From positions 124,001 to 188,000 of the forward strand of contig JAJDWK010000094.1 of assembly GCA_022825675.1 (NCBI GenBank): a stretch of DNA of 64,000 bases, written 5' to 3'. Position numbers and translations under genes: made by a program. The notes below the pieces were generated by a model. It searched no databases, was not told the origin of the DNA, and saw nothing but the letters and a program-made list of their open reading frames with translations. Positions 6,811 through 23,553 of the stretch are shown one piece after another (within the stretch, counting starts at the first letter, position 1; every line of letters starts with the position of its first letter). This stretch comes from Anaerolineae bacterium (GTDB lineage Bacteria > Chloroflexota > Anaerolineae > Aggregatilineales > Phototrophicaceae).

Positions 6811-8298
6811 TTATCGCGGCAATGCCGGCGCGCAGCAGAGCACCAGCTCCTTCGCCGCTTTCACCTCGTCCAGGCGGCGCACGGGCGCGGTATGCGGCGC
6901 GTTGAGCAGCGTCTCCGGCTCGCGCAGCGCTTCCGCCGCAATCGCTTCCATGGCGGCGACGAAAGCGTCCAAATCTTCCTTGACCTCGGTTTCGGTCGGT
7001 TCAATCAGCAGCGCCTCGGGCACAATGAGCGGGAAATAGTTCGTCGGCGGGTGGAAGCCATAATCCATCAACCGCTTGGAAATATCAAGCGCGTGCACCG
7101 CGTCCGCGCCCTCGATATGCCCCTCCAGCACAAATTCATGCCCGCAATAGCGCGGATACGGCAGATGGTAGGTCGCCATCAGCCGCGCCCGCAGGTAATT
7201 GGCATTGAGCACGGCATAACGGGTAACATCGCGGATGCCGCTGTCGCCGTAGACGCGGATGTAGGCATAAGCGCGCAGGTGCATGCCGAAGTTGCCGTGA
7301 AAAGCTTTCAGCCGCCCGATGCTCTTCTCGGGCATGACAAAGCCGTAGAGCGGCGGCTCTTCCCCCTCTTCTTCCTCAACAATCTCAACGATGGGACCGG
7401 GCAGATACGGTGCCAGCCTGGCGTTGACGCCGACAGCGCCGCTGCCAGGTCCGCCGCCGCCATGAGGCGTGGAGAAGGTCTTGTGCAGGTTGTAGTGCAT
7501 AACATCAAAGCCGAGCGCGCCCGGTTTGACCACGCCCATCAAGGCGTTCATGTTGGCGCCATCCATGTACATCAAGCCGCCGGCGGCGTGCACCGCGTCA
7601 ATGACCTCGAGGATAGTGGATTCAAATAAGCCGAGCGTGCTGGGCACGGTAATCATCATGCCGGCGATGCGCTCGCGCAGGTCGCCCTCGCAGGCGGCGC
7701 GCAGCGCCTGCAAATCGACATTGCCCTGGCTGTCGGCGGGCAATTCATGCGCGTTTAAGCCCGCCATGGTGACGGTGGCGGGGTTGGTGCCGTGCGCGCT
7801 GTCCGGCACCAGGATGACATCACGCTGAGCATCGCCGCGGTCGAGGTGATACTGGCGGATCATCAAGATGCCGGCGAATTCGCCCTGGGCACCAGCCGCC
7901 GGGCTGAGGCTGACCGCCTTGAAGCCGCTAATTTCGCCCAGCCAGGTCTGCAATTCCCGCATCAAGTAGAGCGCGCCCTGGCAGCCGTCTTCATCGGTCA
8001 GCGGGTGCAGCTGGGCGAAGCCGGGCAGCCGCGCCGCGTCTTCGTTGATTTTCGGGTTGTATTTCATCGTGCAGGAGCCCAGCGGGTACAAACCCTGGTC
8101 GATGGAATAGTTGAGTTTGCTCAGCTTTACAAAATGGCGTACCACCTGCACTTCGCCGACTTCTGGCAGCGGCAGCGATTCTCGCAGCAGTTCCGCCGGC
8201 AGGGACGCGGCGGGCACATCGCATTCGGGCAGGTTGACGCCGATGCGCCCCGGGCTGCCGAGGTCGTAAATCAGCGGCTGCAGTTCTTCTGTCGCCAT
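6811..8298 (-). CDS. gcvPB: glycine dehydrogenase (decarboxylating) subunit 2
   Basis: PLP-carrying half of the split P-protein of the glycine cleavage system, which decarboxylates glycine and loads the aminomethyl group on GcvH lipoate. The PLP-lysine region reads NLHKTFSTPHGGGGPG. Other family blocks are YPLGSCTMKYNPK, SPAAGAQGE and DSAHGTNPATV. Length (495 aa) is normal for the subunit. I choose the ATG at 8298 because AAAGGAG stands ten bases upstream; the longer ORF (ATG 8328) has only a poor site and adds a non-conserved ten-residue extension. It is the last gene of the gcvH-gcvPA-gcvPB operon and follows gcvPA by 56 bases. It should be under the glycine riboswitch at 10209-10305. Confidence 0.95.
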   Translation of the reverse strand: MATEELQPLIYDLGSPGRIGVNLPECDVPAASLPAELLRESLPLPEVGEVQVVRHFVKLSKLNYSIDQGLYPLGSCTMKYNPKINEDAARLPGFAQLHPLTDEDGCQGALYLMRELQTWLGEISGFKAVSLSPAAGAQGEFAGILMIRQYHLDRGDAQRDVILVPDSAHGTNPATVTMAGLNAHELPADSQGNVDLQALRAACEGDLRERIAGMMITVPSTLGLFESTILEVIDAVHAAGGLMYMDGANMNALMGVVKPGALGFDVMHYNLHKTFSTPHGGGGPGSGAVGVNARLAPYLPGPIVEIVEEEEGEEPPLYGFVMPEKSIGRLKAFHGNFGMHLRAYAYIRVYGDSGIRDVTRYAVLNANYLRARLMATYHLPYPRYCGHEFVLEGHIEGADAVHALDISKRLMDYGFHPPTNYFPLIVPEALLIEPTETEVKEDLDAFVAAMEAIAAEALREPETLLNAPHTAPVRRLDEVKAAKELVLCCAPALPR

Positions 8299-8354
8299 CG
8301 GCGCTGTTCTCCTTTGCTCGCTCTCCATCCCATTTTAAGCGGATGAAGATGTCA

Positions 8355-9689
8355 TCATGCCAGCCCTGCCAGGGTGTCCGCCAGGCGGTCGATTTCTTCT
8401 TTGCTGTTCATCTCGGTAACGCAGAGCAGCATGTGATTTTGCAGGTGAAAATAATGCTGCCCCAGGTCATAGCCGCCGAGGATGCCTGCTTCCAGCAAGG
8501 CGGCGTTAATGTCCGCGATTGGGCGCGGGCATGCGACAGTAAATTCGTTGAAGAAGGCTTTGCTTTTGTCGACGCTGTAGCCATCGAGGCGGTCGATGCG
8601 CTCGGCGGCGTAATGGGCTTTGTGATAATTCAATTCGCCGACGCGCCGCAAGCCATTTTTGCCCATCAGCGCGAGATAGATGGAGGCAGCCAGCGCCATC
8701 AGCCCCTGGTTGGTGCAGATATTGCTGCTGGCGCGCTCGCGTTTGATGTCCTGCTCCCGCGGGCGCAGGGTCATGACATAGGCGCGTTTGCCATCGGCAT
8801 CCTGCGTTTCGCCGATGATGCGCCCGGCGATGCGCCTGACATGTTTTTTGCGCGTGGCGAAATAGCCGAGATACGGTCCGCCGAAGCCCAGGGGCACGCC
8901 CAGCGGCTGCGCCTCGCCCACGGCGATATCCGCGCCAAGCTCGCCCGGGCTCTTGAAGAGGGACAGCGCCATCGGGTTAGCGACGATGACCAGCAGCGCG
9001 CCCACTTGATGCGCGGCGGTCGCCAGCGTCGACAAGTCATCGATTTGCCCAAAAAAGTTCGGATATTGCACGGCAATCATGGCGGTATTGTCGTCCAGCA
9101 TTTCGATGAGGTCGACAATTTCGCCGCGGCCGCGGTCGCCGATGATGCGGATATCGCGCCCTTGGTGGTAAGTGCGCACTACTTCTCGATATTGCGGGTG
9201 GATCGCGTGGCTGAGGATGACTTTTTTGCGCCGGTGCCGCGACGCTTCCAGCGCCACAGTGACGGCTTCCGCCAGGCTGGTGGCACCGTCATAATGGCTG
9301 GCGTTGGCGGCGTCCATGCCCGTCAGCGCGCACATCATGCTTTGATATTCGTAAGTCGCCTGCAAGGTCCCTTGCGATATCTCGGGCTGATAGGGCGTGT
9401 AGGCGGTGTAGAATTCGCCGCGCAGCAGGATATGGTTCACGACCGAAGGGATGAAATGGTGATAGGCGCCAGCGCCGCGAAAGATGGCGAAATCGCCGCC
9501 GTGGTCATTCGCCTCGCTTATCGCCAGCATTTCGCTGGCGGCTTGCATTTCGCTCATGGGTGGCGGCAAATCCAGCGCGGGGAAGCGATGCGATGCTGGC
9601 ACCGCGTCAAAAAGCGCGTCAATAGAAGGTACGCCAATCGCCGCCAGCATTTGACGGGTATCGGCTTCGGTATGTGGGATGTAGCTCAC
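8355..9689 (-). CDS. gcvPA: glycine dehydrogenase (decarboxylating) subunit 1
   Basis: Non-PLP-binding partner subunit of the two-subunit P-protein (alpha2beta2 with GcvPB), 444 residues. It begins with the family-typical SYIPHTEAD segment and carries GGDFAIFRGAGAYHHFIPS, AYTPYQPEISQGTLQ, and SNICTNQGLMALAA towards the C-terminus. The ORF track starts at 9743, but conservation starts at a GTG codon at 9689, which has GAGGAAA about nine bases upstream, so I use that. It sits between gcvH (38 bases upstream) and gcvPB (56 bases downstream) in one operon. Confidence 0.94.
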   Translation of the reverse strand: MSYIPHTEADTRQMLAAIGVPSIDALFDAVPASHRFPALDLPPPMSEMQAASEMLAISEANDHGGDFAIFRGAGAYHHFIPSVVNHILLRGEFYTAYTPYQPEISQGTLQATYEYQSMMCALTGMDAANASHYDGATSLAEAVTVALEASRHRRKKVILSHAIHPQYREVVRTYHQGRDIRIIGDRGRGEIVDLIEMLDDNTAMIAVQYPNFFGQIDDLSTLATAAHQVGALLVIVANPMALSLFKSPGELGADIAVGEAQPLGVPLGFGGPYLGYFATRKKHVRRIAGRIIGETQDADGKRAYVMTLRPREQDIKRERASSNICTNQGLMALAASIYLALMGKNGLRRVGELNYHKAHYAAERIDRLDGYSVDKSKAFFNEFTVACPRPIADINAALLEAGILGGYDLGQHYFHLQNHMLLCVTEMNSKEEIDRLADTLAGLA

Positions 9690-18170: not shown

Positions 18171-18233
18171 TAAGTAGTGAGAACCTATAGCGGCAAAGAT
18201 TCAACAGCGTTTCTACCACCGAGGGCATCGAGA
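18171..18233 (+). repeat. left ~62-bp arm of an inverted repeat flanking a 5.3-kb island
   Basis: Begins TAAGTAGTGAGAAC, then CGGCAAAGATTC, then TACCACCGAGGGCATCGAGA. The reverse complement of 23451-23514 has the same three blocks in the same order and spacing, with roughly ten mismatches. Confidence 0.75.
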
Positions 18234-18248
18234 TAAGCATGAGCAAAT

Positions 18249-18276
18249 CTCAGTAAATGCAAGTACATTATGCAAC
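18249..18276 (+). repeat. MITE-like terminus R1
   Basis: CTCAGTAAATGCAAGTAcaTtATGC. Member of a ~27-bp family (consensus CTCAGTAAATGCAAGTAAGT + CATGCGA) seen six times in two intergenic regions of this window. Confidence 0.7.
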
Positions 18277-18355
18277 AGGAAGTGGTGATTATCATGGATA
18301 TATTTCACTTGGCATGCTTGACACAGGTTTTTTACCACAGAGAGAACACAAAGGG

Positions 18356-18752
18356 CACAGAAGTAAATGCAAGTAAGTCATGCGAAAACAAAATGACCTT
18401 TGTCCCAGTATCTCATACCCACACAACATCCCAAGCCGTAGGGGCGAGCCTTGGCTCGCCCCTACATTTCCAATTACTTTGTTGCACGTACAGAGATTTA
18501 TGTTTGTTTGCTGGAGTTTCGTAAGTCAATAGAATTCACCACTCCCGCTCGCCATTTGGCCAAACCACTGGTAAAGTACCTTTGGATTCATCAGATACCC
18601 TTTCGTTTCTTTCTTCCATATAGAAAGGGTATTGATGAATTTCTGTAGTGCAAATCAAATCTTGCGTGTCCGCTCCTCAGCTCTCGGGGAGGGGTTAGGG
18701 TATGGGGGTTTGCGTCACGAATTTTCGCATAACTTACTTGTGTTTACTGAGG
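18356..18752. mobile_element. MITE-like element bounded by inverted termini R2 and R3
   Basis: The left end (18356-18389) contains AAGTAAATGCAAGTAAGTCA then TGCGAAAA. The right end (18722-18752), read in reverse complement, is CCTCAGTAAACACAAGTAAG then TTATGCGAAAA. The interior is non-coding and includes a perfect 28-base palindrome. A preceding ACCACAGAG...GGGCACAGAAG track resembles that before the second copy at 23154. The element ends eight bases before the FAH start codon, so its GAGGAG supplies that gene's ribosome site. Confidence 0.65.
18438..18465. repeat. perfect palindromic hairpin
   Basis: gtaggggcgagcc + tt + ggctcgcccctac: a 13-bp perfect stem with two central bases, inside the MITE-like element. 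It is a REP-like or cruciform-forming sequence with no T-tract. Confidence 0.8.
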
Positions 18753-23077: not shown

Positions 23078-23104
23078 CTCAGTAAATGCAAGTAAGTCAT
23101 GCGA
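23078..23104 (+). repeat. MITE-like terminus R4
   Basis: CTCAGTAAATGCAAGTAAGT + CATGCGA, the cleanest copy of the ~27-bp terminus family, 20 bases after the mtnA stop and in direct orientation with R5. Confidence 0.75.
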
Positions 23105-23153
23105 CAATCGAATGGTTGCTGAGCAATCAGCACACACCTCTTACCACCGAGGG

Positions 23154-23392
23154 CACAGAAGTAAGTACAAGTAAGTCATGCGAAATCGCGCCTCAAGCCC
23201 CCATCCCCCAGCCCCTTCGCCATCTCTATGGCGAAGTATCCCCAAAATGAGGGAAGGGGAGAATCCCCAGTGATTACAAGGGTTTTAAGCTCCTCCCTCT
23301 TTATGGGAAAATGCGCCATAGAGATGGCGCATGGGTTTGGGGTGGGGGAATATGTGGAATTCTGTTGCATAATTAACTTGTACTTACTGAGG
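23154..23392. mobile_element. MITE-like imperfect palindrome bounded by R5 and R6
   Basis: About 239 bases whose two halves are imperfect reverse complements. Both termini carry AGTAAGTACAAGT. Both arms contain a CCCCCAT/CCCCCACC tract and an exact inverted CCATCTCTATGGCG (near 23220 and again, reversed, near 23315). There is no transposase and no believable ORF. It has the same organisation as the copy at 18356-18752 (preceding ACCACCGAGGGCACAGAAG, direct terminus upstream), hence a non-autonomous element family. Confidence 0.7.
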
Positions 23393-23450
23393 ACAATTGA
23401 GGACACCGAGAATAAGATTTAAAGAGACTTTCTCATGTTTTTCTCGGTGT

Positions 23451-23514
23451 ACCTCGGTGTACTCGGTGGTAAAATCCCTGTCGAATCTTTGCCGCAATAA
23501 GTTCTCACTACTTA
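23451..23514 (-). repeat. right arm of the inverted repeat flanking the 5.3-kb island
   Basis: Reverse complement reads TAAGTAGTGAGAAC, then GCGGCAAAGATTC, then TTTACCACCGAGTACACCGAGG, matching 18171-18233. Just inward, GGACACCGAGAA and TTCTCGGTGTACC form a further stem. Confidence 0.75.
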
Positions 23515-23553
23515 CCTGTACTTATATCCGTGTCCGCATTTGGTCAACTGCGT

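Follow-up and report, generated by a model that had tools for sequence, protein, structure and literature searches.

GA-duplicating MITEs in one genus of Anaerolineae and an IS630-family transposase as their probable mobiliser

Short repeats with conserved ends in the genome of an Anaerolineae bacterium are very probably non-autonomous MITEs moved in trans by a DDE transposase of the IS630 family (Tc1/mariner superfamily). Genome sequences show that they have shared ends, a GA duplication, a target motif, nesting and empty sites, and that IS630 genes lie inside matching ends; from these features we infer cut-and-paste chemistry at GA and mobilisation of the MITEs in trans by the IS630 transposase. 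A likely history is that an IS630/Tc1/mariner lineage switched from TA to the 7-bp sequence CRCAGAG with duplication of GA, and that nested clusters of elements result, since CRCAGAG is abundant both in interspersed repeats of the host and inside the MITEs themselves.

Elements in the window

The window is the 64,000-nucleotide stretch analysed here, and its genome (G000) comprises 3.66 Mb in 106 contigs. Elements were annotated from sequence stretches around matches to the terminus AGTAAATGCAAGTAAGTCATGCGA. This terminus has four matches in the window at no more than three mismatches, with none expected from 100 shuffles, and they fall at both loci where the original prediction had placed a terminus repeat. 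Three further degenerate termini are present at 18252 (+), 23365–23388 (−) and 23503–23526 (−).

Table 1. Terminus matches and elements in the window.
Feature	Position	Strand	Details
Terminus	18362	+	0 mismatches
Terminus	23081	+	0 mismatches
Terminus	23160	+	2 mismatches
Single terminus	18725–18748	−	3 mismatches to query
Single left terminus	18252–18275	+	3 mismatches; ..CTC on the left; not paired with a right end
Complete MITE, type B interior, 131 bp	18362–18492	+	GA 18360–18361, GA 18493–18494
Outer MITE, type A interior	23081–23526	+	TC 23079–23080, TC 23527–23528
Inner MITE, type C interior, 229 bp	23160–23388	+	GA 23158–23159, GA 23389–23390
Target side TACCACCGAGGGCACAGA of inner insertion	23142–23159	+	belongs to outer MITE

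The two loci had been described as sharing one architecture, which does not hold: 23081–23526 is a nested pair, whereas 18362–18492 is one complete element between the single termini 18252 and 18748, which are not a matched pair. The two direct termini and distal inverted terminus described at 23078–23392 are those of one element nested in another. Other type B copies of 129–131 bp occur in G000, and insert-free DNA similar to the site of the complete type B element reads GGGCACAGAGATTTATGTTTG (G000:C40). A fumarylacetoacetate-hydrolase-like gene has a possible start codon (18762) just a few bases beyond the single reverse-strand terminus. At the second locus the outer MITE is broken by the inner one and its right terminus is degenerate; an uninterrupted homologue of 205 bp with TC/TC flanks is present at L055:2517–2721. 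The inner MITE contains a long internal hairpin and is inserted in a CACAGAG of the outer type A element, within CACAGAGGA. The track ACCAC(A/C)GAGGGCACAGAAG, earlier read as part of the repeats, is exact at 23142 but reads ACCACAGAGAGAACACAAAGGGCACAGAAG at 18334; in both places it consists of target sequence ending in ..CACAGA and then AG, with which the element opens.

In the window, mtnA and the PfkB-family gene are separated by ~540 bp. Among 16 congeners in which both mtnA and pfkB were matched, the corresponding gap is 26–99 bp in 13 and 190–271 bp in the other three, and the window's repeat block is found in none of the congener gaps inspected.

Structure and distribution of the elements

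Further copies had been predicted genome-wide, and G000 does have 127 terminus matches at no more than three mismatches, with none for a reversed-pattern control. The terminus occurs in 23 of 34 congeneric genomes, at very unequal copy number, and in none of the 27 genomes of the family and order outside the genus; an exact-pattern scan of genome_contigs gave matches confined to Anaerolineae/Chloroflexi metagenome assemblies. Across these genomes, the spread of the terminus family is restricted to the genus.

Complete elements are ~130–230 bp long. In G000 most measure 129–232 bp, or 129–258 bp if the range is drawn more widely, and those of G006 measure 166 bp. Their left end is an A or T followed by GTAARTGCAAGTAAGTNATGCGA and the right end is the inverse of the left, the closing inverted copy often being degenerate. 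AGTAARTGCAA is common to the ends, which then often diverge, the left continuing ..GTAAGTNATGCGA and the right often ..CAAAGTAATTGGA; right ends are variable and were placed by pattern match. Several unrelated interiors, each of them recurrent (types A, B, C and others), lie 3′ of the terminus. The G000 elements have inverted ends of ~24 bp and no transposase gene, and the conserved termini, the differing interiors and the empty sites described below support the earlier reading of a MITE-like non-autonomous family. G006 carries a homogeneous 166-bp MITE with GA/GA flanks, several copies of which are in non-repeat DNA. Hairpins of the form GTAGGGGCGAGCC..GGCTCGCCCCTAC are seen within type B and other elements, at 18438–18465 in the window and at many other loci.

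Target sites and empty sites

We compared the flanks of 84 complete elements from four genome groups (G000, G006, G009 and other congeners). In 59 of them the dinucleotides on the two sides are identical, and in almost every case these are GA, or TC when the element is read the other way round (permutation p = 0.00015 for G000 and 0.005, 0.01 and 0.0006 for the other groups), and longer matches are found in only one (3 nt) or none (4 nt) of the 84. Orienting 53 distinct targets on GA gives the consensus CRCA-GA-G, in which the C and A immediately 5′ of GA and the G immediately 3′ of it reach ~96%. Unmatched flanks in the remaining minority include five TC/GA and two GA/TC in G000, so some element ends have been reshuffled. 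Many flanks seem symmetrical only because CACAGAG/CTCTGTG is present in both orientations; the idea that each element occupies the precise midpoint of an outer palindrome was considered and dropped, as matched GA/GA or TC/TC flanks predominate.

The most informative empty site is that of L208, a transposase-bearing element in G008 (see below). This element splits a small gene that is uninterrupted in the congeners G032 and G021, where it reads ATCAGAGAACAACAGG, a second stretch given for the same intact junction being GAAGAGATCAGAGAACAACAGG. In G008 the left flank GAAGAGATCAGA (also given as ATCAGA) is followed by the element and then by the right flank GAGAACAACAGG. When the flanks are rejoined with a single copy of GA, they yield an open frame of 68 aa, relatives of which are found in 15 other genomes; this is the sole success among three models, and both no duplication and TA duplication break the frame. 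Because intact orthologues in two species show the empty site, the duplication at L208 is exactly GA. The junction occupied by the window's inner MITE is also seen without an insert in about 30 other G000 stretches, mostly type A copies, and most of these read CACAGAGGAAAATTGAGG or nearly so. Likewise, repeats in G006 read CACAGAGGGC where other copies have CACAGA, the MITE and GAGGGC. The elements thus have both the target-site duplication and the empty sites of MITEs.

An IS630-family transposase between matching ends

Five genomes were scanned for transposases with PF01609, PF13358 and PF00665. A single copy has the terminus at each of its two ends: L208, of 1,113 bp, with ends AGTAAGTGCAAGTAAGTCATGCAA and AGTAAATGCAAGTAAGTAATTGAA and GA flanks on both sides. 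It matches PF13358 (8e-31) and the IS630 model NF033545 (5e-36), with HTH families on its first frame, and so carries the DDE_3 domain and N-terminal HTH of IS630 / Tc1-mariner transposases; its reading frame is split between two ORFs. The counterpart gene in G018 reads through the split region, the G018 element being truncated at its other end, and in G009 and G017 the terminus is joined to IS630 transposase fragments. A transposase with matching ends, which the original prediction had suggested looking for, is thus present in congeners, directly inside those ends at four unrelated loci (one two-ended and three partial), none of them an intact autonomous copy. The left and right ends of the MITEs resemble the respective ends of the IS (..TCATGCRA versus ..GTAATTGRA). 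The GA duplication, the IS630 membership, the nesting and the position of the track outside the element all go beyond that prediction.

PF01609 and PF00665 transposases were rejected as partners, none being bounded by MITE ends; one PF01609 match is merely near a MITE. The IS has no match in the plasmid collection. G000 itself has no transposase match at E ≤ 0.001, so its MITEs are either orphans or are served by a gene hidden in repeats that did not assemble; the MITEs are where many G000 contigs break off. The 2-bp duplication is that of IS630 / Tc1-mariner elements, but the duplicated dinucleotide is not TA; we file the family as a variant of this group because the transposase itself fits the family models.

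IS630 relatives across the class were scanned with identical 2-nt flanks demanded and the dinucleotide left free. TA was returned for many of them, compared with 10 hits altogether from a shuffled control, and several TA relatives have ends beginning AGT (L254, L257, L263, L265 and L267). The close relatives L218, L254, L255 and L257 (46–50% identity) have a TA flank, and in a tree of the catalytic segment the GA copies fall inside this group, their nearest sister being an element of G035. L281 and L282, the nearest IS630 relatives, are in G035, which belongs to another genus of the family, and their flanks are not TA; L281 has the ends AGTAAGTCC and AGTAAACCC, and the right end of L282 reads ..TTTACT. 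The change of target may be older than the genus.

Discussion

We propose a mechanism in which the ~24-bp ends would be recognised by the transposase and the element excised; its insertion into a CRCAGAG target, with a 2-bp stagger spanning the GA in the middle, would then leave the GA (TC) duplication. The copies in G000 would have been driven by a transposase that is now lost or unassembled.

It is highly improbable that these elements insert at TA, as IS630 ordinarily does, and that GA is coincidental. The element would then be AGTGCAAG..., with the TA inside AGTAAG duplicated; TA does occur at both ends, in AG-TA-AG and CT-TA-CT, and related IS630 elements use it. However, the junction in G032 and G021 is without TA and empty type A copies read CACAGAGGAAAATTGAGG, whereas TA would require empty sites reading CAGAAGTACTGAG; TA duplication was rejected on the evidence of the empty sites. 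The TA model moreover breaks the L208 frame after 17 aa, whereas the GA model leaves it open and conserved over 68 aa. We give as little credence to mosaic repeats of the REP/BIME or ERIC type (through RAYT or otherwise), or to RNA elements with structure, that recombination and not a DDE transposase has spread, even though hairpins are present in many interiors and CACAGAG is a point around which several repeat families form mosaics. The ends are fixed, the duplications measure 2 bp and the empty sites are clean, all of which argues instead for DDE transposition; no duplication arises from IS200/RAYT-type insertion, and REP/BIME, which are short hairpins near a Y1 transposase and mobilised by RAYT, differ from the present elements in the same way. 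An Rfam search gave no match, although a new element would not be expected to have an Rfam family.

A different, undiscovered transposase with similar ends could in principle move the MITEs, the IS630 copies being passengers themselves, but we regard this as very unlikely. Transposase copies are few compared with hundreds of MITE termini, and the search was limited to three Pfam families in five genomes; on the other hand, at four unrelated loci matching ends directly enclose the gene, the target and duplication are common to the IS and the MITEs, and close IS630 relatives also have ends beginning AGT. Mobilisation by the IS630 transposase is the reading that we prefer.

In bacteria and animals alike, IS630/Tc1/mariner elements are regarded as defined by their choice of TA, and structural studies of Mos1 reportedly revealed that the TA target is severely distorted, with flipped bases. 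IS630 and ISY100 insert at TA (PMC2170065). ISY100 has a transposase of the same superfamily (helix-turn-helix and DDE) and makes a 2-bp duplication, but almost only of TA, with 34 of 39 in vitro products having a normal TA duplication (PMC2170065). The closest known parallel is RUP with IS630-Spn1 in Streptococcus pneumoniae, the established case in which IS630 mobilises a bacterial MITE (PMC2229807). RUP likewise consists of ~100 short non-coding copies whose ends match an IS630 transposase element acting in trans, and it too has inserted into other repeated elements; however, it inserts at TA (PMC2229807), whereas the present MITEs duplicate GA inside CRCAGAG and have longer ends (24 bp) and several unrelated interior types. 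The Correia/NEMIS elements of Neisseria are also MITEs with ~24-bp terminal repeats and a target duplication, but they have TA at their termini, and their ends and host are unrelated to those described here (PMC2229807). Tc1/mariner transposases can use non-TA dinucleotides including GA and TC, as reported for Sleeping Beauty, but there these make up ~1.4% of events (PMC5801840), and here GA or TC is found in nearly all elements with identical flanks. No IS630-family element with a systematic non-TA dinucleotide appeared in the titles and abstracts of a partial literature search. A natural lineage that seems to duplicate GA inside a longer motif, with TA relatives at ~50% identity, allows a direct comparison to find the residues behind target choice, and it supplies one clear cause of the nested repeat mosaics in this genus.

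Other repeats in the mosaics

A separate widespread repeat, ACCACCGAG..CACCGAG...CTCGGTG..CTCGGTGGT, is part of the mosaics; it is present in the window at 18171–18235 and 23450–23514 and at many G000 loci, and its 65-bp arms are 85% complementary between the two window loci. The repeat arm GGAGTTTCGTAAGTCAATAGAATTCACCACTCCC recurs at ~18514–18547 in the window and at L024, L019 and L050, and possibly represents another family of miniature elements extending, like the first, to CACAGAG. An IS3-like element (TGTAGTGGTCCTATAAAACTGG..., with an rve-domain transposase) lies inside a type C MITE at G000:C40 ~7973–8641 (L019). A similar end (TGTAGTGGTCTCGAAAAACTGG) is seen from L050:2598 onward, where a probable IS3-like copy breaks a type B MITE.
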